Shown here one piece after another: positions 1,296-38,213 of a DNA stretch of 64,000 nucleotides (positions within the stretch are counted from its first letter, which is position 1; each line of letters starts with the position of its first letter). Under the pieces are notes generated by a model. That model saw only the letters and a program-made list of their open reading frames with translations. It made no database searches and had not been told where the DNA came from. The DNA lies in assembly GCA_963971425.1 (NCBI GenBank), contig OZ020517.1:15347297-15411296 (forward strand), read 5' to 3'. This DNA comes from Bryoerythrophyllum caledonicum. Its lineage: Eukaryota; Streptophyta; Bryopsida; Pottiales; Pottiaceae. Made by a program: the position numbers and the translations under genes.

Positions 1296-3337
1296 CAGTA
1301 CCCACCAACAAGTTTACGTTCAAATTTTCGAACTCCAAGTTCCAGTGAAAAAAAACTGTAACTTTGAAAAATAAAATCTCCCAATTAACAACTCCAAACT
1401 TCACGAAACTGCCACATGTTTGTTTAAAAACAAGCTAACTACATTCCACATGTCATTAACATACAAATTTCAGCCATGTGTATGAGAAAAATCAGATTGC
1501 ATTAATTGCTCTCCAAGTTGTGTATGTGGCTCCTAAAATGTGAAGACAACATCCACTCTTCTTGAGACAACACAGTTTAGATTTTTGTGAGTTTGAGCTT
1601 CATATATGGATCTTCAAGAACCTTTCAACACAAAACATGCTTCATTCAAGCAATGGGGGAACTTGTGGATACATTCTGTGAGTGTTTTTGGTGAGTAGTT
1701 ACAATTCTAGTGGTGTTATTTCTTGAGCTTGCAACTTTGCACCAGTAGTAGAATTTGAAGGATTCATTACTCCTTGAGGATTTTGGTGGGTACAACATCA
1801 AGTGGGAGTGCTGAGCATCATTCGGAGTGCTCAACATCAACTGGATCAGCTCAACATCAACTGGGAGTGCTCAACTGGGAGAAAGTAATTCACTCAGATT
1901 GGTAAGTGTTCATGCTTGCATTCTCAACTCAAATGGTCTTTCATAGCTTTATGTGATATGATCTACTGGCCATGATGAGCAAAATAGTGAATTGAGATGG
2001 TATATGGTGACGTTGTCTTCATTAATTCAAAGGATATGGTCATGAAATAAGAGGTGTTTTGTTGCTGACTTTATTGATGTTGTTGGTGGGATTTAGAGCT
2101 ATGAAGACTAGAATGCTAAGTGAGGGTGAGAGGGGGATGATCATTGGTATGCGTACTGTTGGCATGTCAACACATCGTATTGCAACAGAATTAGGAATGA
2201 CACAGTCCACAGTGTTTACTATTTGGAAGAATTTTCAAGAGCGTGGAACTACACAACCATTAAAGTCAAGCGGTAGGCCTCCAAAGCTCAATGTGCGTGA
2301 CAAGAGGGTGTTTGGCCGTATTTTATCTAAGAATCGACGCTTACCACTTGCTGCAATCAGAGAGAAGATGCATGTGAAGGTTTCCCCCACCACATTAAGG
2401 AAGGCGATGAACAATATCGGATTTTCTAACCGGGTTGCTGCAAAGAAGTCGTTTCTTAGTAAAGAGCACATGGCAAGGAGATTGGCATTTGCCAAAGAAC
2501 ACCGACATTGGACAATATCTGATTGGAAGAACGTAATATGGACAGATGAATCTTCATTTGAAACTGGGAAAAGGTCGAGCGCCGTGAAGGTATGGCGAAA
2601 GTCACATGAACGTTTTTCTTTGGATTGTTTAGCCCCATCTTTCAAATCCGGTCGTTCATCAGTGATGGTTTGGGGTGCATTCACCGGTTATGACAAGTGC
2701 CCACTTGTTATAATTCCACCGGATAGACGGAAAGGTAGGGACTTTGTTGATGTAGTTTATGAAAGTCGCTTGAGTGGCTTCTATTTTCTCCACGATCACC
2801 CTCAGACACTTATACTCATGGAAGATGGTGCCCTAGTGCATCGTAGCAAAGAATCAAGTGATTGGAGGCAAGCGCATGGCATAAGAAAGCTTTTATGGCC
2901 CGCAAACTCTCCCGACTTAAGCCCCATTGAAAACCTATGGAAGATTGTGAAAGATATTATCCAAAAGGAAGAGCTACCGCAAAATAAAGAAGAATTAGTC
3001 AACACAATTGAAAGGACATGGGAAGAGGTGTCTTTAGAGACAATTGAAGTTCTCCTTGCAACCATGCCTCATCGTATGAAGGCTGTAATCAAAGCTAATG
3101 GTGGTAGCACTAGATGGTAGATAGTTTGTCAAAAAATACTATATTTACATATAATTCTATAATTTTTTGTGTAAATTCCGAATATATTCATAAAGTAGAT
3201 TTCATTATCTCTCCGATGCACTTTGCGGTTTGTAATTTGGATCATTTTTGAGCAAATGGTGGCAATTTGAAATTGGAGACCAGTGTCTTGTTTCTGCAAA
3301 ATGAGTGCTGTGAACGTAAACTTGTTGGTGGGTACTG
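1296..3337 (+). mobile_element. Tc1-like transposon, copy 1 (2042 bp)
   Basis: Terminal inverted repeats start CAGTACCCACCAACAAGTTT and extend about 26 bp. TA lies on both sides (1294-1295 and 3338-3339), the Tc1/mariner target duplication. One transposase gene lies inside. A second copy of exactly the same length sits at 36172-38213 in the opposite orientation. The element is inserted in the P1 element, close to its right end. Confidence 0.95.
2059..3120 (+). CDS. Tc1-like DD34E transposase
   Basis: The gene encodes a cut-and-paste transposase of the IS630/Tc1/mariner superfamily that acts on its own inverted ends. The 353-residue frame is unbroken. Residues 15-60 form a helix-turn-helix (MSTHRIATELGMTQSTV), followed by a GRPPKL motif like the GRPR box at 72-77 and a second DNA-binding region around 85-125. 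The catalytic triad is visible as D163 (WTDES), D256 (MEDGA) and E291 (PIENLW); 34 residues separate the last two, so the class is DD34E. The length is normal for Tc1. The first 14 residues are hydrophobic and unlike the family, so translation may really begin at the Met at 2101. The protein is identical to that of the copy at 36389-37450, which suggests recent activity. Confidence 0.93.
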   Translation: MLLTLLMLLVGFRAMKTRMLSEGERGMIIGMRTVGMSTHRIATELGMTQSTVFTIWKNFQERGTTQPLKSSGRPPKLNVRDKRVFGRILSKNRRLPLAAIREKMHVKVSPTTLRKAMNNIGFSNRVAAKKSFLSKEHMARRLAFAKEHRHWTISDWKNVIWTDESSFETGKRSSAVKVWRKSHERFSLDCLAPSFKSGRSSVMVWGAFTGYDKCPLVIIPPDRRKGRDFVDVVYESRLSGFYFLHDHPQTLILMEDGALVHRSKESSDWRQAHGIRKLLWPANSPDLSPIENLWKIVKDIIQKEELPQNKEELVNTIERTWEEVSLETIEVLLATMPHRMKAVIKANGGSTRW

Positions 3338-12446: not shown

Positions 12447-13619
12447 TTATGGGGCCTTTGTCCGGGGTGTCTTCCATAGAAGACCAATTATCTCTTTGGA
12501 AGTAGTATGGGATAGCGTGGCGTATTCATACGGGTGTTTGGCATTTCTATGGGATTTGTTTAGTCCTTCCATCGCTAGTTTATCCGCTTGTTCGTTTCTC
12601 TCTATATTGACATGTGCTCTAACTTTATGAAGGGTTGTAATTTTTGTTTGACTGTGAAGCATTTGAACCATAAATGTTAACATTGTTTGGTCGGGGTGAC
12701 TATAATGTAGGGTAGGATGTGTTATATGTTTGTTTAATAAATATATATACATTTATGCAATCTATAAATATATGTGTGGGTTCATTAGTGTATTGTGAAG
12801 TGATAATTTGGAGAGTTTTATGTAGGGCCATCATTTTTGCTCCGAGGATATTTTGAAGTCCATGTAGTCTTTTGGATATCCTTCTTTCTTTGGTTGCATT
12901 GAATATTCCATATCCTGCTTTTTCTTTATGCCGATGTTCGGGGCTAGCTTCTGTTGGTTTTTTGAAGGAACCACCTATGTAGTAGCTACATGCAGGGTCA
13001 AATTTTAATGGAATATGATCTAAGTGTGTAGAGAGGGGAGGCAATGGGGTGAGGTGATTTCTATTGTACTAGCATATTTGAGTTTTGACCATTTTTTGTT
13101 GTTGTTTATTGGGGTTAGGGAGGGTGTAGGCGGGGCTATTTTTGTATATAGTTGATGTAAATTCAGGTTGTTTGTTACAGAAGTGAGTGTGGCAAGTTGT
13201 TTTGTGGTGCCAATATTATTATTTTGGTGGTGTATGCATAGTATTTGTATGGTGGATGGCTCTAATCTTTGATTATTTTTTACTTCAGGTGGTAACGTGG
13301 GTTCTTCGTATGGTACTGAATCTGCTTCAAGTAATGCGATGATGTGAGAATTAGGGAATGGGCATGAATGTGGGTTAAAGTTTTGGTACCATTTATTGTC
13401 TGGTGTGATAATAAGAGTAGAAGTATATTTTGGATCATTTTTGGCCGCAAGTCTAGCCCAATGTATTGCTTGTTGTGTTTCTTCTGTAATATCAGGATGT
13501 GCAATACCATTTCCAATCCATTTGTAGTCAAAGGCGTTTCCTAGTGAAACAAAGATCTTGTCTATTTTGAAAGGTGAATAAAACTTAGTGAGTTGGATGG
13601 AGCATGTAATGGGGGACAA
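12447..13619 (-). pseudogene. LINE RNase H domain and upstream linker
   Basis: Minus-strand frames at 13020-13619 and 12700-13044 read through a linker (FDYKWIGNGIAHPD, TQQAIHWARLAA) into an RNase H fold: YYIGGSFKKP with Gly where the catalytic Asp is expected, GLQNILGAKMMALHKTL with Lys in the place of the usual Glu, HIFIDCINV with Asp, and then KVRAHVNIERNEQADKLA, where the last Asp sits in the family's conserved H..N..AD motif. The domain follows RT, as in LINEs of the I/R1/Tad-like groups and some plant and algal L1 relatives. The altered active-site residues and frame breaks show decay. Confidence 0.75.
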
Positions 13620-15258
13620 GAAGTATGAGTGTTGGGTGTTGAAGGATAAGATTAGTGAGTCTAAGATGGGCGTGGATAATGTGTATTGTGCGAGTTCGAG
13701 GGGATTATTTTTTGGAATGCAGTATTTATATCTTTGGTATAGCCAGACTATTTTAGCTTCAAATGATTGGATTATTGGCTCTATGTTTGTAGAAGTTTGT
13801 AATTTGTTGTGGTATTGGTTCCATAGCCATTGGAGCCTAGTGATGGGGATGGAGATGACATGTCTCCCATTATCTTCATATATGTGTGCCTGATCATCAA
13901 TAGTTCTAATTATATTGTTTGATGTGAAAATGTCTTTTTGGGGGTTGCATTTGGTTGTCTGGATATTCAGGAGGGAGATGATTATGGGTGGGATGATGAA
14001 TCTTGGGTCATGAGATTGCTCTTGGGGGGTGTGCTTGAATGATTTCTAGGTAGAATCTATTTTAGGTGTTCTGATAATATTGTGTTAATTGTATGGAGCT
14101 ATGGGTGGAGGTGTTTTGGTCATGCCATGGAAAGAGGTTCCTTTGGGGTAACCATTTGTTGTAGGTATTGTTATTACATTGCCATTGGCATAGATATTTG
14201 GTAGCATTTCTTCTAATTTTGTTTAAGCCAATATATCTTCTATGTTTATGGTCAATAATGAGGTTTATGGGATATGTGGACGGGTTTTTAAGGATGTGTG
14301 TTGGCCGAGGAGGAAGGGATGGGTGCAGTGGGTTGGGGGGATGAATTGGTGAGTGGTTGTTTCTGGGATGGGTGTTAGTGATGGTGGTGACGTATGTGTC
14401 CCTCAGTCTGTAGGGATTTAGGTGTATAGAGCATGGAAATGCACATGTACAAGGGCATAGGGGGTAGCAAAATAGTTGTTGGGCAATATTAAGAGCGTTC
14501 TTTACTAGTTTGAATGGTGTAGCATGAAATGTTTTGAAGTCATTATGGTTCATAATATGTGTTCCATTTGATAGTGTAATTTGTTTTAAGTTGTTAATAT
14601 TTACCGAGAATAGTTTTTGTAATAGTTTTTGAGAGAGCTATTGGTTAATTCTTGTGTCATTCCGGGTTTCCTATAGCCATATTTTCTCCAAAGGTAAAGG
14701 TTCTAATAGAAAATCCATCAGTGTGCTTCAAAGGTAAATTTGTACTTTGTTTTTTAGTAGAAAAAATGTTTGGGTGATTGGTGATTTAATGATATCGACT
14801 TTGTTTATTCTGGGAATGTTTTTAGCACCACCATATTTGGCAAGAATAGAGTGTGTATCCTTTTTATATCTCTCCAAGTCTACCTTTGTCGTTGAGTGCG
14901 TTTTGAAGTTCTTCGCCTATACATTGAAGGTAAGCATTTTTAGGGGAGCAAGCTTTTAATCCAAATTTTTTTTTGGAAGTTGGGTTATGACATTTGACAT
15001 ACATTTGGGTAGGCCACAAATTGATTTTTCTACAGTTGTGATTTTTTTGTCTAGTTCTTTTATGGTGGGCATGGAGTATGGTACTGCATAGAAATTCTAC
15101 GCTACTCCGGGTTTGATTATTGTGTCTAACATTGTTATTTTTTGTTTCATTGTCGCCGGACATGTTATTAGCTCTTTGTTTTGTTTAGTGAATTTTGTAG
15201 TAGTGGTGTGAATAGTATCTTCCATTTTAATGAGGGGACAAGATGTGTGCCTAGATAC

Positions 15259-19933: not shown

Positions 19934-20349
19934 CTCGTCTGTTGAGCGAAGCTAGTATGTGAGCGGGGAGAAAGGAGCAGGGAGCAGGGAGCAGGGAAAA
20001 TGGGAGCAGAGAGCAGGAACTTGCAAAAATCTTTCTTGAGAATTTAAAAATTTGGTTGTTAAAATATAAAAATCATGTAACTTATGCAAAATTAGCAAAA
20101 AGATGCCTATGACCGTGTACCACAGGGGGTCCTAAACCGCGAATAAAATATGGATTTGCACATTTAGAGACATTGAATCTGGTTTGGAAAAATTCAAAAT
20201 TTCAAAAGTTTGAGGGGATTAGAATTTATTATTCACTACCTTATTTTTTTAATCAATTGGTAAAAAGATAAAATTGTAAACTTGAAAAATAAGCTACGGA
20301 AGATTTCAAAAACTTGGTAGTAGCCCTAAACTACAAATTACTTTCTACA

Positions 20350-23300
20350 TCATGGTGATACGTGGCATAAAACCCTAGTTTCTAGAACACGCTTCACTTC
20401 ATTGAAGCTAAAGCTCGGGGCATGCATAAACACATCTACTGCGGAATCCAAACTACAGATAATAGTAAAGATGTAGTAAAGATGCTTGCATTGGGCCCAT
20501 TGTCCTCGTTTCCCTAAGGACTTTGTCAACATCTCTTTGAAGTATGGACATGAACAATCTGGAAATGAACCTATAGTGATCAGGTACTGTTGAGAATTGG
20601 GAACTATACCAGATTCTAGAGTAACGATACATCCAAATCCTGGATGAGGTACCATGGTCACTTGATGAATGCGACATCTGAGGGTGACAGCTGATGCACA
20701 ATTGTTGAGATGTTTTGTTGTAGGAGCCTTCATATTCCTGCGAATACTCTTCCCAGATCTGATCTTAGGATATTCATGAGGGGAATCCATAGTGGGATGA
20801 AAATTCATATCAAGGGTAGGACCTTGACTACCAAAATGTCGTCTTGGAGACATCGCCACACGTTGAGGTAGTTAAAAACCTACATTCTCGAGTGCCAAAA
20901 TTTCTTTCTTTGAAAGATTAGTTCCAATTTTAACTGGCCAGACACTTGGAACATTAGGTTTCGAGAGGACCCACTTGCGTTTGGTGCCCTTCATACAACG
21001 CTCGATGTCGTCATTGCAGAAGAAGAATTGCATGCGCTCCACCTTGTTCTTCTTATAATTGTCCATCATTCCAACATAGGTAGGAGCAGCAATGCTTTTG
21101 TTGTCTTGCACAATTCTAGTAATACACTTCCTCTTGGTAACTGCTTATAATGCAAAGCATGCTTTTGTAGAAGTCTTTGGCAATCTTGCAATGTGCCATT
21201 GCGACTCATTGCATACATTCTCCTGAACGGCAGTAATATGGCTTGAAAGAGATCTTAATGGAGATTGAATCACCTCTGTTGCCATGGGAATGGTTTCTTC
21301 TTCAGGTACGGTAGAAAGAAACTCCTCCTAAACATTACTCATACTAGGTGCGTCCATACGAGCTCTGGATGTTCTGGTATTGATTCTTGGATAGGAATAG
21401 TTTACCTTGTCAGGCCGATGGGACTCATGCTCGTCACCTAAAGACATGTCGGGCTTGCCTTTCTAACTACCAATCACTTCTTCTCCTTCCATGTGGGGAT
21501 GGCGAGTGCAAAATTCACCAGCTCCAGGCATTTTTGCTATAGCCTCGTTGAGAACCTTGGGGTTTCCAGAGCGAGAGACAGAGCGTTGGGCAACCCGTAA
21601 TAGCAACTCCTCCTTTCCAGGCCCATTGCCTCCACGTTCCCCTTTAAGAAACTGATAATACTTCACCACTTGCATAAATGCCCTAACAAAGTCATCTACA
21701 GTGGCCACATACAAGTCATTACCTCGATTTCCGGACTGCTGGAGCCATTTGTTGTGGGCTGTCTCTGCAAGATTGCATGAGGGCATCTCGGCAAGCTCAG
21801 CCTCATTAAGATTCTACACACATGCCATGGAATGAAGGAACAAAGGTGTTATTCAACCAATAACATGAAAATTGATTAATACAAATATTTGGGCACAAAA
21901 ATGAATGGTTTCATAAAACATGTTTACGGCTTTCGCTTACCAATTGCATAAAGCCACCCCACTGCCGGTATCGAAAATGCCAAAATGCTAGCCACAGCTC
22001 CAAACGACTCAAACTCTCCCCCGTTGCGGCACCTGAAGAATGCCACCATCCTACGATGGCGTGGTAGCGAGTTTCGGCCTCATTAAATGTTGTTGCATTC
22101 TTATATTGCTTGCAAAGCTGTCGATGTTGATCTTGGAGGTCAGCCCTGATGTCGGCCTTCGTATGCTTCTCAAAAGATTGGATCCAATGGAGGAGGCATG
22201 TTCGTTCTTGATTGGCCATTGGGATGGATGCATCCCCACTTCCATAGATGACCCGCACTGCATTCCAATTTGCTTACGCGCTATCAGCCAAGAATCCTTT
22301 GAACTTAGGATCCGCTATGTCATGTCTAGCTGCTACTGCATTTAGATTCTTCCAAAAAATGCATTGAGCTGCGGCATCCTCAGACTGCATATCACAAATC
22401 GCCACAGTCATAACCCTACAAAAAGTTGAGTCGTACACATGGCAAGCCATCGTGGTCCACTGCTTTACACGCTTGACATGGTCCAACATCAACCATGCGT
22501 CTTCGAGGTCGCCGGTGGGCTGCATTCGTCTTATTAAGTCAACTCCACTTCCTGGCCCCACTTCAGACATCTTGAAGACAAACACCTTATGTGAATCGGA
22601 TCCTTGGCCCGGAAATTTATTTTCCTGAATGAAAGCCCAATTGCTGCAACCCCTCAATTATGTGATACTATCTATGATGCCATACCGCCGAAGGTACTTG
22701 AAACTTGTGACCTGATTTCGAATACTAGGTGAACTGATGGACTTGCACATATCCAAAACAGGTACTAACTCCTCCAGGTTTAAGGTCTTCGACGGAACAT
22801 TTTCAGGCCGTAGAAGAAGCTCTCCAAGAATATCTTTACTTGCCTCCAAAACAATTGCAGAGGTAGTAGCATTTGGGGTCCTTTCAACATGCTCCCCAAG
22901 AAGGGCATTGGTCCTCTCGGTTAACTCCCGATAGTCACCAACTTTGACAGGATGTCTATGAACCCCTAAATGCACACATGCGCGAGTCATAATTGAACTG
23001 CCAAATACATAGTATATTCTAGAATCGCAGCTAGTAAGGCAAGAAGGGGGTGTCTTACAAATCTTACAAACTAGTGATGAACCGTTCGGTGGAAGACAAC
23101 CAACCCCAAACTTAGCCGATGTCGAGCCCTCCCACTCCGTACTGTTGATGGAAGATGTTCGATGGACACGAGTCAAGTAGGCACAGTTGCGGTTATTGCA
23201 TTGGAGATGGCCCACGCAACTAGATTTGCGAAATGTCAGTCCCGCGTCATTCTTGATATGCGAGGTAATTGTCTTTGTCCAAGCGTGGCCGTCGTATCGC

Positions 23301-23887
23301 TTGTCCATTCCTGTCATCAACTTCGCTTGCGAGAGCATTCGAGAGGCTTGGACGGGAGGTAATTCAAAAATGACATCCTCATTGAAAACAGGGGGTAGAC
23401 TATGTATTCTTTGAATACAAACAATACTATAGTCAAGCTTCTTGAGCATGTTTCTAGATCCTTTTCCATCACGTAACTGCTTTAGTGAGTCAATAATACT
23501 AACAGAGTCACTAAAGCTTGCAGGAGAAGATCCACTTCTACCCGAGATGCGATCAACCGATGAATCTGGCCTTGAGCAATCAACGGTGGTACGCGACGAA
23601 GGACTCTTACGAGCAGGAGAGTCAACATCGGAGTCATCACTTATGATAGTGACAAAGTTAGAATCAAGCTCAACCTTCACTTCAGAGAGTCTGGGAGTAT
23701 TTGAACAATGAGGAGTACCATCCTCTGCTGATGGGTTTAGGGTAATGTAACTTACGCCATAGACTCTGAATCTTCCTGGCTTAAGCAACCACTGCTTCTC
23801 ATTATCAATATATGTATGATGCTGACCTAGCGTATGAGTAATACGTCCAGAGGAACCATCAAACATTTCTTCGTCGAGATATTTCAT
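20350..23887 (-). pseudogene. MULE transposase (zinc finger - MULE - SWIM), decayed by stops
   Basis: A single minus-strand frame of about 1,130 codons, apparently with one intron (donor near 21.94 kb, acceptor near 21.83 kb). The N-terminal third is low-complexity, then a FLYWCH/GCM-like zinc finger (SSCVGHLQCNNRNCAYL, around residues 215-245 of the first frame). The MULE catalytic region follows: SEVGPGSGVDLIRRM, LEDAWLMLDHVKRVKQW, YDSTFCRVMTVAICD (first Asp) and KGFLADSA (second Asp). NLAETAHNKWLQQ lies after the intron. The C-terminal SWIM finger is CSCPYF...QCKHLYYIF. At least six in-frame stops (for example at 22658, near 22274 and 21463) but no clear frameshift interrupt it; most could be former CAG or CAA. 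A sister copy lies at 48.4-50.1 kb. Role: transposition of W. Confidence 0.85.
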
Positions 23888-23889
23888 TG

Positions 23890-24890
23890 TTTAATGCGAA
23901 TTATACTGTACAAATCTAATGATTTGCATTGGTGCACCATTTTGCTATTGACTTCAATTTAGAGAATTGAAGAAGTAACAACACTATAAACATTGATAAG
24001 AAGCTGAATATGTTCATTCCATTTTGCAACTACATTACAAGAAATAATTCTTTTAGACTAGAGTATTCTTTCAACTAGATTAAAAGAATTTATTGCCAGC
24101 CTCCATATTCAGTAAGGCAGTAAGATTAAAAGAATACTCTTGTAATAATACAGGATCTAAAAGAACACTCTTCGTTGTTAATGCGGGTTAAAGAGGATCC
24201 ATTTCAGTTTGCCATGCAATCTTCAAAATGAAAGGTAACATAATTGGACAGCACTTAAGGGCCAATGAAATCTGTTACATTCGTACCTGCTGAAAATAGT
24301 ACGAAAACAAAACTGAAATGCTTTCATCATTTTGAGCCGGAAACCCTTGGCCAGGCTAAATGCTCTAACCCTTACTCAACTCGAGCGACGGAACCACAAA
24401 TTTCGAGCGTGAAAATCCCAGAGGTTGCAAGCAGCTCCATCCTTTCTTCTGTTCTTGGATCAAGTGGTCTTATGATTAGGTGGATCAGGTAGCTTTGCTG
24501 ACGAAATGAATTGTGATCTATGTGATTCTCAACAGATTGAGGCTAATGCACGATTGTATTGGTGGAGATGCAAGAGTGTGGTCAAAGTAAACGCGGCGAC
24601 TAGGAAGCAGCGCGTATTGACAACCGCCAGGACTTTGCAATCAGGAGCGGCGGTTTCCGCAAGGTACATATCTTACAAACATTGAACAGCATGTTGTATT
24701 CAAGCTTCAAAATTTTGATGTTAGGGTTTGATCGGGCGAAGTTCATTTGATAACTAAATGTCGCTTTAGGGCATGTTGTATTACTTGGGAGCCGCCCGGC
24801 GTGAATGGGTTGTCGATAAGGTTTAATTCTTGAGTGCGTCGGTGCCAACGTTGTTCGATCCTGAAGTCTCGTGAGTGTGGAATCGTGAAT
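23890..24890. other. 5' flank of MULE transposase, no gene seen
   Basis: AT-rich to mixed sequence upstream of the minus-strand transposase. It should hold its promoter. No supported gene or strong motif was found. Confidence 0.4.
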
Positions 24891-24892
24891 TC

Positions 24893-25250
24893 GGATTCGT
24901 GAGTGTGCACAGTTGGAGTTCGGATTTGTGAGCGACGTTGTACGTGAAGTTGGATTCGTGAGTGTCGACTGAATGTGCACAATTGGAGTTCGGATTCGTG
25001 AGCGACGTTGTTCGTGAAGTTGGATTCGTGTGTGCCGAGTGAATGTGCACAGTTGGAGTTTGGATTCGTAAGCGATGTTGTTCGTGAAGTTGGATTCGTG
25101 TGTGCCGACTGATTGTGCGCAGTCAGAGTTCAGATTCGTGAGTGTGGATTCGTGAAGTCGGATTCTTGAGAGCCGACTGAATGTCAGCAGTAGGAGTTCA
25201 GATTTGTGAATGTAGATTCGTACGTCGTGAAGTCTCGTGAGTGTTGATTC
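24893..25250. repeat. About 70-bp minisatellite
   Basis: Four to five tandem units share the parts GTGCACAGTTGGAGTTCGGA, TTCGTGAGCGACGTTG and TCGTGAAGTTGGATTCGTG. Open frames across it on the minus strand are repeat artefacts. Confidence 0.8.
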
Positions 25251-25531
25251 GTGGGTGTCGACGACTTCACGAAAACTGGTTGCGCACAACTGGTTGACCG
25301 GGAGAGTGAGTGTTTTTTGTGGGTGACTGTGGGGACGGTTTACTGTCGCTGGAACATGATGAATTGCACCACGTGGTGGGACATGAGTCCTCGGATTGGG
25401 TGTGTTGGATCGGGTTGGCCTAAGTTACGATGACAGTGGGTGGTGGGGGACCACATGACAGTGGTCAGCACCCGAAGCAACGATCGATTGAAATGGGACT
25501 ACATCATGATGCTCTGCTACCAAACGCATGC

Positions 25532-25837
25532 TACCTGGTTGATCCTGCCAGTAGTCACATGCTTGTGTCAATGATAAAGCCGTGCATGTGTATGAATTAA
25601 CTCTTTTGTACTCCTAAACTGCGAATGGCTCAATAAATCAGTTATAGATGCTTTGATGGTACCTTGCTACTCGGATAATCGTAGTAATTCTAGAGCTAAT
25701 AGGTGCACAAACTCCCGACTCGGCTCGCCACGAAGGAACGTAGTTATTAGCTAAAAGGCCGATGCGGGCTTGCCTGGTATTGCGGTGAATCATTATTGGT
25801 TGTCAAATCGCAAGGCCTCTTGATCTGGCGATGTTTC
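25532..25837 (+). pseudogene. 18S rRNA 5'-end fragment (about 300 nt)
   Basis: It starts at the true 18S 5' end (TACCTGGTTGATCCTGCCAG), keeps CTGCGAATGGCTCA, AATCAGTTATAG and CGTAGTAATTCTAGAGCTAA in order, and ends near GATCTGGCGATG. Many substitutions and small indels compared with plant 18S show it is not functional. It lies inside MULE W, just upstream of the palindrome array and cargo gene, so it was probably captured by the transposon. No rest of an rDNA unit is present. Confidence 0.9.
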
Positions 25838-25855
25838 ATATATATTTCTTGATCT

Positions 25856-26582
25856 AGCGTCGGTACCGACGCTGCTGAATGTATTCCACCATTCGGCAGC
25901 ACTATGTACCAATATGAATTCAAGACTTCAGTTCACAGTTAATGGTTGTTATATGAGTTGAGTAGAAATCGTTGCGTCAGCACCGACGCACCTGCACTTC
26001 CGATTCATTTCAGTGAGGAACTCAATAGATATTTTGCAATAGATACATTTGCCGTTTTATTGAATGAGTAGTTCTCTTTCAAAATATGATCATCTCGTTA
26101 GTTAGTTTTCTTTCTCATGATCATTAATCAGCCTCATATGGACTCGTCGGTACCGACGATCTTCTTTAGCAGATCAGAAATGCCCAAGAAATGACTCCGG
26201 ATTATTGAAAATGCTTTAGAGGGTCCAAGTTCACATTAATGTTCCGTCAAGATGTTGATTCTGCTTTCGATGTATGAATATTTTGTTCAATTGAAATGGT
26301 TTTAAGAAGCACCACCATGATTGTCGATGCCGACGTAGTCATTTCGACTCATCTACGGGATGCCATCCTCTCCGATGTGCGGTGGCTGCTAGTTCCAGTG
26401 TGGCGACCGAAGTCGTCGCAGGCAGTGAGAATTAGTCTGAGCTTCCGCCGCTGCTAGCAACCGTGTTGGTGCCAGGGCTCCCACCGTGCCAAGGAAGCCC
26501 AATCTTTGAGGAGGCGCTAGAGTTCGTGAAAAATGAATAAAGAGTATATGGCCGCTCCCGAAGTAGCGTCGGTGCCGACGCT
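25856..26582. repeat. Palindrome array AGCGTCGGTACCGACGCT in MULE W
   Basis: Copies start at 25856 (18-bp perfect), 25974 (GCGTCAGCACCGACGC), 26145 (CGTCGGTACCGACG), 26322 (degenerate) and 26565 (18 bp, one change). Spacing is about 100-250 bp, ending 200 bp before the cargo gene's ATG. The position suggests regulator or transposase binding sites in its promoter region. Confidence 0.85.
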
Positions 26583-26780
26583 ATTTTTTGGCAACCCATG
26601 CATACCCATTTGAACTGTGTATGGATTGCCTGAGAAATTTTGGAATAATTTTGATAGAGTTCTTAGGTTGAGGTTGATTCCTGTTTGGTATTTGCCATTG
26701 CACTCGTCTCATTATATTGTCAACCTTTGTCGAATTGTGTTGCTTAGAAACTAATTTTGATATGATGCAAAATTCAGGTC

Positions 26781-29700
26781 ATGGACCCGTCATCATCTCA
26801 ACGGTCTACCCGATCACCCGAATTCTCTGGTGGCACAAGTTCACATCCGGACGCGGATGTTTCGGTGGCCGATGAGGTGGAATGTCACCTACATCTTAAC
26901 AAAGATGAGCTTCGTCAACACCAAAGGGTAAATTGTATCTTTGCCATAGACAGCCTACGCATTGCACCCAAGGCTTCCTCTCGCTTTGATGTGCCGTTGT
27001 GCAGGCTTGTGTACATGCCACTTGTCCGACCCACACTGGAGTCGGATATTAAGCGGTTGGAGGCTGAATTTACCCATGGATATCATCCTGGATCTACCGT
27101 GTTTTACGTTTCTCTTTCCAATGACCTCGGAGAGGAGTCCTTTGTCACCGAGGAGGATAAAGAAAAATGGGGCCCTCTGTGGAACGCTGCCAATGATCGC
27201 TTTGAGTCAAATCTTTTGGCTACTCCCCTGTTGAGCTTCTTGAAGAATCGTAAATTCTTCACATGTGATGGAAATCATCGGTTCAAGGCATGGATGGGAT
27301 ATATTGAGAGAATGCACAATGCTGATGTAAACTGGCACATCTCCGTGGATTGCATTTGTTTGGATATCAAAGGCAGTGTCGGATTGGCTCTTCATGCTAT
27401 GCACGATATTAACAGGTGAGCATCACTAAGCCCTTGCAATATTCATTCGATACTTGCATCTTGGATTCATTGATTGGTTTTTGATTCTATTGTCCTGGTG
27501 TAGAGCCACAAAAAACTCACACGTCAAGACCAACTTCGTGCACATTCTCCATCGAATTAAGGCGATTGGAAGTCAAGTCCTTGAATCATTCAAGGACTTG
27601 TTGACTGCAAAGGATTATCACAAGTGCTTGGCTAATCCTGGGAGAGGGAAGTCATGGTATCCATTAACAGTCGATGTCTTCGTCTCTCTACTCTTTCGGG
27701 TAAGTATTTTCACTTTCAAGTTTTTTGGTTGTAAATGTATGCATTTACTGGTAATTTCTAATATTCTTACTTATTAATTATGTTTGATATGGAGTTATAC
27801 CATTTCTCACCTCTTTAGCAATTGTTGTTGGACCTCAGCAAGAGATTGTTATTGCATCAGATGAGGCTGCCAGAGTGTACCACGAAAATACTCCTGAGGA
27901 ACTTCGGATTGACTCTGAGATTACCACTTCTATGCGAGCTGCAGCAAAGGCAAAAATTTAGATGTACAAGGGTCAATGGTCCAAATATTCGGCCGTTGCA
28001 AATCCAAAGCTTGGTAACCAGTTCCTTGAAGAGGTAAAAATGATTCTTGAGTATATTTGATATTTCATTTGAAGTGATACACCTAGATAGAGTGAATATT
28101 CAAAATAATTTCTCTCCTAATAAATTCACATTACAAAGCATTGGAGTTCGAATTCAAAGCCAGAGATGACTTTGGATAAGTTACAGTTGATTGCAACTTC
28201 CAATGTCCCTCCCCATTTCAAAGTTCGATGGCTTCAGTGGTGGAATTCAAGCAATGCCACTAGGGAAGCTCTCCACTTTCCTCCAAAAGGATTCAGCGAT
28301 AAGGAGTTAGACTCGTGGTTAAACAAGGCATCTTTTTGGGTTGGAGTAAGTTCTGTTTAGCAAATTTCTTTAGTTCTGTGAATTTAGTTCATCATATTTT
28401 GGAATCAATTCGTTCATAAAATGCTTTCAACCCAGTTGAGTAAGTTAATGTTGCAAAATTTGATCGTTGTAGCTTGAAGTCGCCATATCTGAGGAGTTTG
28501 AGAGTACTTAAAGCCGACAAGCTGCCGCTGAAGTTGGACCTACCAGAGAGACCTCGATCTCCACAAGAGTATGTGGAAGCATCAAGGGTTAAACTTTGGG
28601 TGCATGCCTTTCCAACACTGTTAAGAAGCAAGACCACATTCTCAAGGTCAAAGGAATTTAAGAACCACAAGAATATTGACTTGGCTGTGAAGCGAGTTGT
28701 TTGGAGGTGAGTGGGTTGTTTTAGTGATATCAATTACAAATCATTGCCTTTAATTTATTTATCTTAATGTGTTATTGCAACTTACAGGTATTATATGAAA
28801 GAGCTCTTTGTTAAAGGTGCCCTTGAGAGACATCAGCTTCTATTATTTCTTCAAACATGGATTGATAAAAATTCATCGCATTGTATGTTCACTCCTACTC
28901 AGCTTCAATCGTGGTCTACTTTGCATTTAAATGATGGATGTTGGTACCTCGATTGCACGAAGTCTTTTTGTCCATCTGAGGAGGAAGCGGCAAAGGCTTC
29001 GCATGACAAATCCGAGGTATCTGGAGTGGTTGGTGCCACCACTCAAACCACTGTTGACCTCAGTGATGAGGATATGGACACCGCTGGCGGGAGTACATTA
29101 TCTGGGAAGGAGCAATTGAAGGTCCTTTCTAAGCGTGCCAAGGAGGCTGAGAGAGAAGATCATAGGAAAAAGAAAGAAGCAAGGCGGGCTGTGGAGAAAG
29201 CTCAAAGGGTTGCCGAATTGGCTTCTGCGAAGGCAAAGGAGGCAAAGGCAAAGGCGGTAGCACTTGGCTCAGCAAGGTCTGGCACTCTAGAAGATAGCCC
29301 CTCAACTGTTGGTGTGAGTCCAACCTCCTCAGATTCTTTATCTCGTCTGCATTTGGAGCGAGATGCTACATTTGGAGGCCTATCAATGTCACGGTTGGTT
29401 CAAGGTACTTCCCATGCACTTAAAGACATTGTGCAAGATACACAATTTGTCGATGAGTGCATTATTAATGCCTCGCTGCTATCCATTGATGCACACCTTT
29501 CAAAGTTCAAGTCTTTTCCATCGGCCTGGACAAACTTGCAGGACTTCATTGATAAGGTACTTTATTTTCAATATTTCTGTTATATTTTTGTCCATTCATT
29601 AATTGATAGTTGATCTAATTACTATTTTTATTCCAGCACAAGCTTGATCGCCCTCGACATTTCTCAGGTCCTCCAGAGAAGACTTCTGGTGTTGATTTGA

Positions 29701-31120
29701 TGGTTGTGGATATTCCGGAGAACTTGCCAGTTCCAAATATTTCAACGTCTATTCCGGCGTGGAATGTTTAGAATGAGAGTTTTGTGGATTTGATTTTTGA
29801 CTTTGCCAACAATCACATTCATGACGATGGCGGCTTACTTCTCTTTCATGCTGATGATTAAAGTCTGAACTCCAAGTTGAAGGGCTTTATGAGAGCTTAT
29901 CATTTCAAGATTTTGAAGGAGTGGATGGGTGTCAATCGGTTGCGTTTGACAAGTGCCAAGGATCCATCAAAAACTGTAAGTACCCTATATTATATAGACA
30001 TTCTAATCCTTCTATTTGGATTTTAAATGTTATTAGTCAGTTCGTTTTTTAATGTTTTTTTCTTTGCAGACACTTTGATTTTGCATCAAGTTGTTAGTTC
30101 AAAATATCCCGAACTCCGCACCGTCTTTGTTTTCTTTGAAACCAGGCAACGAGTTGGAGGCTGTTGGAATCGACATTGTGGCTGATGATGTGCTGCACAA
30201 TTTCGTTACAAAAGACTCACAACTTATTCGGGACATTATTCCATGGAGAGGAGCACGGGAGAAGGACCCCATTCTTCTTTAGATGCTTATTGAAGCGAGT
30301 ACTCATCTTGGAGACATTGTGCTGGATTGTACTGCTTCAACTGGTATGTTGTCATTTCGTTACTTATTCTGATATAAACTCTCACGTGTAGTTGGGATGT
30401 TTTTCCTAATTCATCTAACTGGCATTTTTATTTACAGGTGCTTCCATTCATGCTTGTCGTAAGGCCGGTCGCCATGTTGCGGCGTTGGAGGATGATGGAG
30501 AGATTTTTAACTCTATTTTGCAGCCGCTTGTTGTCCAAAGGGTGAGCGACGGCTTGAAGAAGCAACGCATTCATGCAGGGCAGACAAGTGCTCATGATGA
30601 TGAGGAGCTGATAGAGGTAGACGAGCCTATGATCGATATTGTTCCACGAAACCGATTCTGTACGTAAGTCTTGCATCTTGAATTTTTGTTATTAGACTAA
30701 CCATTTTTCATGTACTTTTTGTATATTTTTCTGATCTTCATTTGGTTTTGTGAATTTTGTCTCAACAGCTCACGTGTGAGGACACCTAGAGATCGACAAC
30801 GCATCCTTTCTGATCGTTTGTTTTTGACTCCGGAGAAGTCGTTTCACTTACCAGTATATGCAGAGGCGTTGGCTCAAGCATCTTTATTCACCTCGCAAAC
30901 TTTTATCGCTCCTTCTCGCTTCACTAGAGATCCTAGAGTACTAGAATTTATGGATGTGTCAGCTCTAGAAGATGTTCCGGTTCTACAGCCTTCTATTGTG
31001 AGTGGAGATGTGAGTTGTGATTACTTTTCGCAGTCTTCTACCAGTAATAGTTCATTATCTCCTCATGAATCTATTATTGCTTTCGACGACGGCACTTCAA
31101 CTTCATCTTCTTCTAGGTAG
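26781..31120 (+). pseudogene. MULE cargo gene: ParB-like domain plus degenerate DNA methyltransferase-like domain
   Basis: About ten exons with GT-AG introns: 26781-27415, 27504-27699, about 27822-28031, about 28139-28347, about 28460-28706, 28790-29556, 29637-29975, 30070-30343, 30438-30663 and 30769-31120. The join between exons 2 and 3 needs a frame change or another splice site. Exon 1 has FFTCDGNHRFKAW, resembling the D-G-x-H/N-R motif of ParB/sulfiredoxin folds. Exon 6 ends in a charged coiled coil (KRAKEAEREDHRKKKEARR). The C-terminal part reads VDLMVVDIPENLP, GGLLLFHADD and GDIVLDCTASTGASIHAC...RHVAALEDD, in the order DPPY-like, then SAM-binding motif I, as in N4/N6 methyltransferases (PF01555), but DIPE replaces DPPY. 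Five in-frame stops (27959, 29769, 29859, 30076, 30280) each fit a C-to-T change. Domain calls are by eye. Confidence 0.6.
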
Positions 31121-31714
31121 TAATATCAATACACTATTTTGTGCTTGTCTAGTGACTTGACTTTCACCAGTACTTTACGGTGATGTACGTCATATATATA
31201 TATATTCATAATGTAGTAGTGAGACTACAAGGACCACTACTTTGGTTTTACAGTTTCTTGTTGTCATCCTTCCATTCTATATAATAGAATTGCAATAGTT
31301 CAAATTTACTGAGTACTACACAAGTTTTTTTGCATATACTTTGACAATTTGCATGATTTAAGATCAACCGTGAACACACATCATTTAGTTTACTATTTAA
31401 AATAATTTAATTGTATAGACTATATAGATACATAATTAGAACAAAATTTAGTAAAGTTTAAGCTGAATTGATGGTAGAAGATGGAATTAGAATATCTGAC
31501 TTTATCGATGTGTTTAATTGCATTTATTTATTCTGCCAGAAATATGCATTCAAATACTAGAAATTGCACCGTAACTTCATTTTATTTTTACAATATTCTT
31601 TTGTTATTTTCAAAAAACTCGCTCTAAATCCTAAACCCACTCTCACGGTGATAGGACCTTTATTTTCCATTTGGTGTTTACTTCCACCTATTAGAGTTCT
31701 TTGGGTTAAAAAAA
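31121..31714. other. 3' flank of cargo gene inside MULE W, no gene seen
   Basis: AT-rich sequence between the cargo stop codon and the right inverted end of the MULE. It should hold the polyadenylation region. Nothing else was recognised. Confidence 0.45.
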
Positions 31715-31807
31715 TATGAATCCACGCTCCCTGCTCTTCTTTTCCGTGCTCCCCGCTCCTTGCTCTCTGCTCTAGGCTCATGCGACAGCTTTCCCCCTCG
31801 TCTGTTG

Positions 31808-33641: not shown

Positions 33642-34079
33642 ATTTTCAAAAAAATTTAGTTAGTTAGATAGGACAAGTTAAAATATAGAAAATAGTTAGG
33701 GGGGAAGGTTAGGGCAAATCTAAGTGTTAATTATTAGTTAGTATTAGGATAAGGAAAATAGAGAGTGCTTACAAAACGTGAGGGGGATAAATACTGACCC
33801 GAGCTCGCATCTTAACCCGACCCATACTGACCCGAGCCCAAGCTCAAGGACCCAAGCCCGAGGACTCGAGTTCAAGGGCCGAGCCTAAGGGTACAAGCCA
33901 ACGAACCAGGCAATAGGCCAACACCTTCGAAGACGGAGCACGAGTAAAGTCCAGAGAAGGAACCTGCGAGCCAAAAGTCCACGGAGGGAAGGGGGACCAT
34001 CTAGAAATTCGGAGAGTGATCGTGAGGGGAGGAAACTCTGCCAGCCCGTGCATCGCTTCTCAAAACAGCTGAGGTGGAA

Positions 34080-34560
34080 ACCAACGAGACGCGAGACGGA
34101 AGCCCGAGATAGAACCCGAGACTCGAACCCAAGACAGAAACCTGGGACAGAAATCCGAGACGCGAGACGAGAATCCGAGACACGAGATGGAGACACGAGG
34201 CAAAAACCCAAGACGCGAGACGGAGACGCAAGACGGCAACGCGAGACTGGAACCCGAGACAGAAATCCGAGACATGAACTCGAGACAAAAATCCGAGACG
34301 CGAGACAAAGACACGAGACAGAAATCCGACAGAGACGCGAGACGGAGACGCGAGACGAAGACGCGAGACGGGAACCCGAGACGCGAGACGGAGACACGAG
34401 ACGGAGACGCGAGAGGGAGACGCGAGATGGAAACCCGAGATGCGAGACGGAGACGCGAGAGGGGAATCCGAGATAGAAACCCAAGACGCAAGACGGAAAC
34501 CCGAGATAGAAATTCGAGACGCGAGACGGAAGCCCGAGATGGAAACGCAAGACAAGAGAA
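34080..34560. repeat. GAGACGCGAGACG-type minisatellite
   Basis: Units close to GACGCGAGACGGAGA or AACCCGAGACAGAAA repeat across about 480 bp. The long Arg/Glu- and Ser-rich frames on both strands are products of this repeat and should not be called genes. Confidence 0.85.
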
Positions 34561-35429
34561 CCAAGCTAGTTGAGCAGAGGTGCGAGACGAGAGGTGCGAG
34601 CTGAGCGAGGTCCGAGCAACAAAGACCAGCGAGTTCCGAGCCAGAGAAGAGAAGACTTGAGGAGTTGGTTTGGAAGTAGGCCTGGAATCTTGTTTCGTAG
34701 ATCACTGTTCATTCGCGGATTAGGCCCCAATTTGAACTTGGATTTGACTTGATTTGCCTTGGGATTTGTGTTTAGATGCCTTTTGACTTAGTGCGTTGAG
34801 TAGATAGGACGGTGGCCGCCAAGGGTAATTAATGCCGTCGTTTTTAGTTAGAAGGCATCTTGTGCTTTTGGCGTTTGTGTGTGTTCTGGGCAGTATAAGT
34901 GAGGAGTCTCTTGGCACCTCTCTTGACTGCTTGATGTGTGTATTTGCTTTCAGTATTAATTCTAAACCTACGATCTCAAAGCCTTCAATGGTTGGAGAGC
35001 TCGGATTCTATACATGACTGTGAGTGCCATTTCAAGTAGTCCGCTCCTCAGTTCATTCCAACCTTCTTATTGTTGTTTCCTTGCTCCATCATTTAGAGTA
35101 GTTAAATATGGTGGGAATAACAGGTGAGACAACGGGAGGGTTAGGGAGGTGTGAATCTCAAATTAAACGTTTGTTGTTGTTTCCTTGTGCCATCATATAG
35201 AACTAGTTAAGGTAGGATGGGAATAACAGGTGAGACAATAAATGTTTAATGAATGACGAGGGGGGAGTGACGGGTGAGGAAAGAGTCAGGGTATGCCTTG
35301 TGTGACCTGTTGGTGGCAGTATGTAGCCGGTTGTGAAGGCGTAGTTCAGATTTCAAATGCACTAACCTTTGGTCAGATGGTTGATTCATAGGAGCACTAC
35401 ATTACCTTAGCATTGAGTCTAGTTTCAGT

Positions 35430-36171: not shown

Positions 36172-38213
36172 CAGTACCCACCAACAAGTTTACGTTCACA
36201 GCACTCATTTTGCAGAAACAAGACACTGCTCTCCAATTTCAAATTGCCACCATTTGCTCAAAAATGATCCAAATTACAAACCGCAAAGTGCATCGGAGAG
36301 ATAATAAAATCTACTTTATTAATATATTAGGAATTCACACAAAAAATTATAGATTTATATGTAAATATAGCATTTTTTGACAAACTATCTACCATCTAGT
36401 GCTACCACCATTAGCTTTGATTACAGCCTTCATACGATGAGGCATGGTTGCAAGGAGAACTTCAATTGTCTCTAAAGACACCTCTTCCCATGTCCTTTCA
36501 ATTGTGTTGACTAATTCTTCTTTATTTTGCGGTAGCTCTTCCTTTTGGATAATATCTTTCACAATCTTCCATAGGTTTTCAATGGGGCTTAAGTCGGGAG
36601 AGTTTGCGGGCCATAAAAGCTTTCTTATGCCATGCGCTTGCCTCCAATCACTTGATTCTTTGCTACGATGCACTAGGGCACCATCTTCCATGAGTATAAG
36701 TGTCTGAGGGTGATCGTGGAGAAAATAGAAGCCACTCAAGCGACTTTCATAAACTACATCAACAAAGTCCCTACCTTTCCGTCTATCCGGTGGAATTATA
36801 ACAAGTGGGCACTTGTCATAACCGGTGAATGCACCCCAAACCATCACTGATGAACGACCGGATTTGAAAGATGGGGCTAAACAATCCAAAGAAAAACGTT
36901 CATGTGACTTTCGCCATACCTTCACGGCGCTCGACCTTTTCCCAGTTTCAAATGAAGATTCATCTGTCCATATTACGTTCTTCCAATCAGATATTGTCCA
37001 ATGTCGGTGTTCTTTGGCAAATGCCAATCTCCTTGCCATGTGCTCTTTACTAAGAAACGACTTCTTTGCAGCAACCCGGTTAGAAAATCCGATATTGTTC
37101 ATCGCCTTCCTTAATGTGGTGGGGGAAACCTTCACATGCATCTTCTCTCTGATTGCAGCAAGTGGTAAGCGTCGATTCTTAGATAAAATACGGCCAAACA
37201 CCCTCTTGTCACGCACATTGAGCTTTGGAGGCCTACCGCTTGACTTTAATGGTTGTGTAGTTCCACGCTCTTGAAAATTCTTCCAAATAGTAAACACTGT
37301 GGACTGTGTCATTCCTAATTCTGTTGCAATACGATGTGTTGACATGCCAACAGTACGCATACCAATGATCATCCCCCTCTCACCCTCACTTAGCATTCTA
37401 GTCTTCATAGCTCTAAATCCCACCAACAACATCAATAAAGTCAGCAACAAAACACCTCTTATTTCATGACCATATCCTTTGAATTAATGAAGACAACGTC
37501 ACCATATACCATCTCAATTCACTATTTTGCTCATCATGGCCAGTAGATCATATCACATAAAGCTATGAAAGACCATTTGAGTTGAGAATGCAAGCATGAA
37601 CACTTACCAATCTGAGTGAATTACTTTCTCCCAGTTGAGCACTCCCAGTTGATGTTGAGCTGATCCAGTTGATGTTGAGCACTCCGAATGATGCTCAGCA
37701 CTCCCACTTGATGTTGTACCCACCAAAATCCTCAAGGAGTAATGAATCCTTCAAATTCTACTACTGGTGCAAAGTTGCAAGCTCAAGAAATAACACCACT
37801 AGAATTGTAACTACTCACCAAAAACACTCACAGAATGTATCCACAAGTTCCCCCATTGCTTGAATGAAGCATGTTTTGTGTTGAAAGGTTCTTGAAGATC
37901 CATATATGAAGCTCAAACTCACAAAAATCTAAACTGTGTTGTCTCAAGAAGAGTGGATGTTGTCTTCACATTTTAGGAGCCACAAACACAACTTGGAGAG
38001 CAATTAATGCAATCTGATTTTTCTCATACACATGGCTGAAATTTGTATGTTAATGACATGTGGAATGTAGTTAGCTTGTTTTTAAACAAACATGTGGCAG
38101 TTTCGTGAAGTTTGGACTTGTTAATTGGGAGATTTTATTTTTCAAAGTTACAGTTTTTTTTCACTGGAACTTGGAGTTCAAAAATTTGAACGTAAACTTG
38201 TTGGTGGGTACTG
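36172..38213 (-). mobile_element. Tc1-like transposon, copy 2 (2042 bp)
   Basis: Same length, ends and gene as the copy at 1296-3337 but in the opposite orientation, with TA duplications at 36170-36171 and 38214-38215. By eye, the 3' non-coding part differs from copy 1 at about seven positions in 220 bp and the other end at about three, while the encoded protein is identical. It is inserted in the unclassified element that interrupts the LINE. Confidence 0.95.
36389..37450 (-). CDS. Tc1-like DD34E transposase (copy 2)
   Basis: The 353-residue frame is open throughout and identical in protein sequence to the frame at 2059-3120: helix-turn-helix at 15-60, GRPPKL at 72-77, and catalytic D163, D256 and E291. 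As in copy 1, the Met corresponding to residue 15 may be the real start. With both ends and the gene whole, this copy could be active. Whether it is expressed cannot be seen from sequence. Confidence 0.93.
   Translation of the reverse strand: MLLTLLMLLVGFRAMKTRMLSEGERGMIIGMRTVGMSTHRIATELGMTQSTVFTIWKNFQERGTTQPLKSSGRPPKLNVRDKRVFGRILSKNRRLPLAAIREKMHVKVSPTTLRKAMNNIGFSNRVAAKKSFLSKEHMARRLAFAKEHRHWTISDWKNVIWTDESSFETGKRSSAVKVWRKSHERFSLDCLAPSFKSGRSSVMVWGAFTGYDKCPLVIIPPDRRKGRDFVDVVYESRLSGFYFLHDHPQTLILMEDGALVHRSKESSDWRQAHGIRKLLWPANSPDLSPIENLWKIVKDIIQKEELPQNKEELVNTIERTWEEVSLETIEVLLATMPHRMKAVIKANGGSTRW

Follow-up and report, generated by a model that had tools for sequence, protein, structure and literature searches.

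Does the long multi-exon gene inside an 11.85-kb transposon of the moss Bryoerythrophyllum caledonicum belong to that transposon or was it captured, and what would its protein do there? The element lies at 19945-31796 of the window, by which we mean the whole stretch of 64,000 nucleotides analysed (contig OZ020517.1:15,347,297-15,411,296; the genome searched comprises 437 Mb in 894 contigs). That genome gives 18 matches to the SBP box and 58 to chlorophyll a/b-binding proteins, in keeping with a green plant. A preliminary description, made from the window alone, had called it a Mutator-like element (MULE) flanked by an exact 11-bp duplication, and had read the ten-exon gene opposite its transposase as cargo, with an N-terminal part like ParB and sulfiredoxin (Srx) and a C-terminal part like N4/N6 DNA methyltransferases, perhaps marking or protecting element DNA. 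We find that this second gene is a co-inherited part of the transposon lineage, not captured cargo.

An exact 11-bp direct target-site duplication (TSD) does abut the element on both sides, and the ten-exon gene stands head-to-head with the transposase. The exon model is based on tblastx along families of falling similarity (L012-L018-L022-L028) and on AG/GT splice sites; between families the frame is kept across introns for ten exons, with exons 3 and 10 weakly matched between L022 and L028. The model comes to ~1,140 residues, and its exons, all on the forward strand, are these:

26781..27415, exon 1, ParB/Srx-like domain (VPLCRL...RPTL...DGNHR)
27504..27699, exon 2
27839..28033, exon 3, with a TAG in the window
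28139..28345, exon 4
28473..28706, exon 5, with a frameshift in the window; start ~28473 inferred from relatives
28788..29556, exon 6, with a charged stretch
29637..29975, exon 7, methyltransferase-like, VVDIPE at the motif IV position and then GGLLLFHADD, with TAG and TAA in the window
30070..30343, exon 8, EKDPILL...GDIVLDCTAST, motif I, with TGA and TAG in the window
30438..30663, exon 9, GASIHACRKAGRHVAALEDDGEIF, motif II region
30769..31120, exon 10, Ser-rich C terminus and stop

The motifs singled out earlier by eye (DGNHRF, DIPE, GGLLLFHADD and LDCTASTGAS) are present where the preliminary description had placed them. The window copy itself is a pseudogene, having five in-frame stops (one in exon 3, two each in exons 7 and 8) and the exon 5 frameshift, seen by setting window DNA against the peptides of relatives. 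The second gene of relative L018 is stop-free. Relatives keep DGNHR, D-x-P-E and the motif I strand; the GGLLLFHADD stretch varies.

Copies were sorted by similarity into families A (window, L009-L014), B (L015-L020), C (L021-L023), D (L024-L027), E (L028), F (L055 with L056, L061-L064), G (L057, L058, L060) and H (L059). The first ParB-exon query gave at least 150 matches, and with two more queries the distinct ParB-exon places in the genome number at least 356. These relatives are not unlinked single-copy host genes, a case the preliminary description had allowed for: at 66 of the 150 transposase places listed a ParB exon lies head-to-head within 15 kb, against 0-2 such pairs in eight coordinate-shifted controls, and at 2 more it is present in the other orientation only. 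Transposase groups that at first seemed to have no second gene proved to have one when closer queries were used. Seen from the other end of the gene, 23 of 30 single-ORF (open reading frame) methyltransferase places are preceded on their own strand by a ParB exon and 7 are not, counted against the 220 ParB places then known. Among 20 loci picked for diversity from the 150 best ParB-exon matches, transposase homology was found within the 5 kb read upstream at 14; L024-L028 have none within that distance, and L024 and L028, both extended, have it further out.

Trees of 15 copies, with both genes taken from the same locus (for L016 and L017, whose models are incomplete, the first 290 residues were used), show that transposase and second gene share descent, as far as the groups they recover can tell. 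Both give A, B, A+B, C and D+E and the pairs L014+L012, L009+L011 and L015+L017, and family F is a long branch in both. Three of these groupings stay under the starred level of support: L014+L012 in the transposase tree, and L015+L017 and (just under it) A in the second-gene tree. The second-gene tree unites family C with A+B; the transposase tree gives it no resolved place. Pairwise identities of the two genes correlate (Pearson 0.85, Spearman 0.72; 21 non-independent pairs, with family C represented by the L023 transposase and the L021 second gene). The ratio of nonsynonymous to synonymous substitution rates (dN/dS) shows, by its low value between families, purifying selection on the second gene: for A against B, the methyltransferase part gives 0.10-0.13 (dS 0.78-0.91) and the middle part 0.08-0.09. 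These values exclude L013 (exon 6 model out of frame) and the ParB part, where dS is saturated. Within families it is 0.23-0.50, as expected of decaying copies.

A passenger gene captured by chance, of the Pack-MULE type, would suit the way in which Mutator-like elements acquire extra ORFs and pieces of host genes (excerpts of PMC6446971). It is nevertheless an extremely improbable account of this one, which is not chance cargo because it is linked to the transposase, shares its descent, is under purifying selection and exists in hundreds of copies. Of the earlier cargo reading, the linkage to ends and transposase stands and the capture does not, the gene being a co-inherited one found at no fewer than those 356 places.

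As a separate observation on family F (for example C3:754525-754968), 35 other ParB exons are 87-97% identical to that of L055, and seven of these 35 have open frames and share one E-value (1.8e-91). Such likeness suggests that the family was recently active.

What kind of protein is encoded? For exon 1, AlphaFold2 was given alignment A3, which holds 31 ParB exons, and returned a model with a predicted local distance difference test score (pLDDT) of 81.6 and a predicted template modelling score (pTM) of 0.76. Foldseek against PDB places ParB, Noc, Srx, SbnI, KorB or PadC structures at every one of ranks 1-42 (E 3.3e-3, probability 1.00, to E 0.29); the probability at rank 43 is 0.02. The predicted model thereby shows a ParB/sulfiredoxin-type fold for this domain. 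In profile searches the best match to phrog_1033 ParB was E 0.03, in one of five members, and DUF1015 reached E 0.08 at best, in three of five. DGNH is invariant in the 31 aligned exons and the following R is present in at least 90% of them; we take this DGNHR stretch to be the phosphate-binding G-x-[HR]-R motif (P-motif) of ParB/Srx. The catalytic Cys of sulfiredoxin lies in GCHR, and all 31 exons have Asn at its position, so that a sulfiredoxin enzyme was rejected for want of the Cys. Domains of ParB type can bind CTP, ATP or GTP (excerpts of PMC12704722).

The C-terminal part is, by profile comparison, homologous to beta-class N6/N4 DNA methyltransferases, with its catalytic motif altered. 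Pfam N6_N4_Mtase (PF01555) matches family D at 33.8 bits against a cut-off of 26.7 (E 4.2e-8), stays below the cut-off in families B (22.1 bits), F (14.5) and H (12.2), and has no match in family G. PHROG DNA methyltransferases match all five members of alignment A1 (best 1.3e-10), NCBIfam CcrM also matches all five (best 6.7e-7, far under its cut-off), and a PDB profile search returned DpnA (9e-6), MboIIA (0.007) and CcrM (0.036). With matches up to E 1 allowed, tblastn gave 333 phage records (best E 2e-5), and the best 20 of the 333, annotated as DNA methylases or methyltransferases, cover parts of the query within 673-919. Aligned by hhalign with five phage enzymes, the domain matches over 197 columns (E 3.5e-13) with motif IV ahead of motif I, the order of the beta class, and plant VDxPE falls on phage DLPF, DLPY or DPPY. 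Profile scans of viral contigs with A1 or A3 found no close viral relatives. The bacterial contig scan found 90 relatives, of which the best 80 mostly match the motif I region only; no clear N-terminal ParB domain was seen by eye in 15 bacterial relative ORFs. Both domain calls of the preliminary description are borne out by these searches and by Foldseek, as is its remark that DPPY and motif I are degenerate.

That altered motif bears directly on whether the protein is an active DNA adenine-N6 or cytosine-N4 methyltransferase that marks or shields element DNA, with D-[ILV]-P-E in place of D-P-P-Y. We scanned for motif IV with a regular expression that was derived from the aligned sequences and could not match an aromatic fourth residue. 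Thirty stretches bear the exon (L009-L028, L055, L057-L064 and the window), and L029-L034 and L056, also scanned, do not; the missing aromatic in 30 of 30 holds because every exon-bearing stretch gave a match. The variants are DIPE (10), DVPE (9), DLPE (4), QVPD (3), and DIPD, DVPK, DILE and DVLE (1 each), so that catalytic [DNS]-P-P-[YFW] occurs in 0 of the 30 and the aromatic position holds Glu in 25, Asp in 4 and Lys in 1.

An active enzyme would sit well with the retention of the Asp in 27 and of the second Pro in 28 of the 30, with purifying selection and with the PF01555 match above the cut-off in family D. DLP[YF]-G, which differs from the DLPE-G of family D by a single aromatic residue, occurs in three of the five phage relatives read, and active methylation retains some probability because some phage enzymes have DLPY, a single residue from DLPE. 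Set against this are the replacement of the aromatic throughout and the change of the Asp to Gln in 3 of 30, all in family G (L057, L058 and L060, AQVPD); in L057 a long reading frame nonetheless stays open across the domain, as though catalysis could be spared. Motif I (DCTASTG, DVSVGTG, DITAATG or similar) also departs from the DCF[AG]GSG of most of the 15 bacterial relatives. We consider active methylation unlikely, and the marking or protecting role proposed earlier is a conjecture.

The remaining parts of the element bear on its class and on what the second protein might act on:

19934..19944, target-site duplication, left copy CTCGTCTGTTG, identical over 11 bp to 31797-31807
19945..20017, forward strand, left end: terminal box of ~16 bp, then GAGC at offsets 16, 30, 37, 44, 59 and 66
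20353..23890, reverse strand, transposase, with stops in the window and a SWIM-like C-x-C...C-x-H near the C terminus, by eye
24900..25209, no strand, intergenic tandem repeats between the two genes, period 70 bp, 4.5 copies, rich in TTCGTGA
31723..31796, reverse strand, right end in inverted orientation: terminal box followed by GAGC at offsets 17, 24, 31, 38, 45, 60 and 67
31797..31807, target-site duplication, right copy CTCGTCTGTTG, exact 11-bp match to the left copy

The window transposase is broken by stops; in relative L014 it consists of two ORFs of 715 and 487 amino acids. Two relatives were read over their full length. L018 (family B) is flanked by a TSD of 10 bp and by eye interrupts a LINE-type (long interspersed nuclear element) ORF; L014 (family A) has a TSD of 8 bp, or, by eye, of 10 with one mismatch. 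Taken as 11, 10 and 8 bp, the TSDs of window, L018 and L014 lie inside the 8-11 bp of Mutator-like elements (excerpts of PMC6446971). This length, the SWIM-like motif and the motif spacing, both by eye, make the MULE identity likely, if unproven; on the other side, hmmscan against Pfam left the transposase without a match, the MULE transposase domain PF10551 included, in each of families A, D, E and F, PF10551 places (the 150 best of 384 candidates) did not overlap by eye with the 150 transposase places listed, and a profile search of the transposase against solved structures gave nothing useful. A KDZ transposon was rejected, the same four families having no KDZ match in Pfam.

GAGC with 7-bp spacing recurs at all nine ends examined (families A, B, D, E and F), and in 2000 shuffles neither the heptad count nor the period-7 pair count of any examined end was reached. 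Both ends are covered in three elements with two ends read, and a single end in three more; the heptads stand at a near-fixed offset from the terminus and, in elements read at both ends, are inverted at one end relative to the other. The first GAGC is 17 bp from the terminus in five right ends (window, L014, L018, D and E, the termini of D and E being placed by likeness, without duplication support). The series 17, 24, 31, 38, 45, 60, 67 is complete in the right ends of window and L014 and shifted by 5 in the left end of F, whose exact terminus is not fixed; the remaining ends have partial series or one-base shifts. Intergenic tandem arrays are present, with a sequence that differs between families, in four of nine stretches (window, L018, L024 and F).

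Near-fixed, inverted heptads in families A, B, D, E and F are what a transposition co-factor would use to pair the two ends, in the manner of mudrB or an iteron-binding protein and without a role in silencing. The heptads may also be plain transposase sites, with no tie to the second protein, and we hold this role for it to be doubtful. With about even confidence we read the second gene instead as a long-standing accessory gene of a two-gene, cut-and-paste plant transposon lineage, encoding a regulator of its own elements. The protein would bind a nucleotide through the DGNHR pocket and bind element DNA at the end heptads, the fast-changing intergenic repeats or both. Its methyltransferase fold may serve to bind DNA or S-adenosylmethionine (SAM) instead of carrying out normal methyl transfer, and the outcome would be that its own elements are helped to transpose or to escape silencing, as VANC does for VANDAL. 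A DNA-binding regulator like mudrB or VANC is the most likely function, and active methylation a less likely one.

Several observations weigh against the reading as an accessory regulator. At 84 of the 150 transposase places listed there is no such ParB exon among the matches listed, and since each search scores its best 150 candidates, loss and divergence look alike; these may reflect ParB places outside the matches listed, because closer queries filled earlier gaps. The 5 kb upstream of L010 hold no transposase coding homology, only homology outside the coding part. Repeats are absent, short or two-copy in five of the nine intergenic stretches. For the exon 1 domain, no Foldseek match reaches E 0.001 or below, TM-scores are moderate (0.21-0.41 by query length), and sequence searches alone (Pfam ParB, PDB profiles) did not find ParB. 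The model of the methyltransferase part has a pLDDT of 36.5 and is uninformative; its query held a translated intron.

To our knowledge VANC is no ParB-methyltransferase protein, and we know of no domain relation between mudrB and the second gene. KDZ transposons with TET/JBP genes are eukaryotic DNA transposons with a gene of DNA-modification type, there a dioxygenase and not a methyltransferase. N4-methylcytosine (4mC) in bdelloid rotifers is reportedly an epigenetic mark in host DNA, not the second gene of a transposon. That mark is a bacterial-type DNA base modification used by a eukaryote (PMC8885841). In Arabidopsis, VANC proteins act on noncoding tandem repeats that diverge fast and belong to particular VANDAL copies (excerpts of PMC10398659), likewise proteins that act on their own plant transposons, as the second protein probably would, and likewise with fast-changing noncoding tandem repeats. 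In MuDR, mudrB is likewise a second ORF next to the transposase (excerpts of PMC6446971). A ParB-type and an N6/N4 or adenine methyltransferase domain are likewise joined in one protein in phage fusions, where fusions of ParB to N6_N4 methyltransferases are commoner than in bacteria (excerpts of PMC12704722), and in Bce_0392 (excerpts of PMC5512222). The phage and bacterial fusions are prokaryotic and, as far as is known, keep DPPY, whereas the gene described here has ten exons, a long middle region and an altered catalytic motif and belongs to a eukaryotic transposon. By analogy, the phage, Bce_0392 and VANC parallels, together with the intergenic arrays, favour, and do not prove, a self-directed DNA-binding regulator.

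The same two-domain logic would allow a ParB-type nickase or NTPase effector, since the ParB part of the ParB-methylase Bce_0392 is reported to nick DNA (as cited in PMC5512222, excerpts). Here the long middle region lies between the domains, and nicking is a prediction from domain likeness; we regard it as very unlikely. A more specific form, tentative and on balance improbable, is that a phage-type ParB-methyltransferase fusion was domesticated as a DNA clamp that is switched by a nucleotide, has a methyltransferase fold with retooled catalysis and is loaded at the end heptads. If true, transposition or silencing would be controlled by a ParB-like mechanism new to eukaryotes in the literature searched.

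Plant transposons with accessory genes and phages with ParB-methyltransferase fusions are already known. Apparently new is a ParB-methyltransferase gene within a plant transposon: we found no plant or Mutator gene of this kind in the open-licence PubMed Central (PMC) literature, searched mostly at title and abstract level, and the Mutator survey PMC6446971 nowhere uses the word methyltransferase in its main text. In this abundant lineage of plant transposons, a type of DNA-modification module used by phages is a stable component kept under selection. This raises three questions: by what means transposons control the silencing of their own copies, whether switches of ParB type operate in eukaryotes outside sulfiredoxin, and what function an amino-methyltransferase fold has when it is conserved but its active site is altered.

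Other features of the window lie outside the element. ORFs at 2026-3117 (forward strand) and 36392-37483 (reverse strand) have 364 amino acids each, with the first 90 residues identical, and by eye are Tc1/mariner-type transposases. At 33888-34708, long ORFs with repetitive translations overlap on both strands, which looks by eye like a minisatellite. LINE-like ORFs at 13023-14637 (reverse strand) resemble by eye the ORF interrupted by the L018 element.

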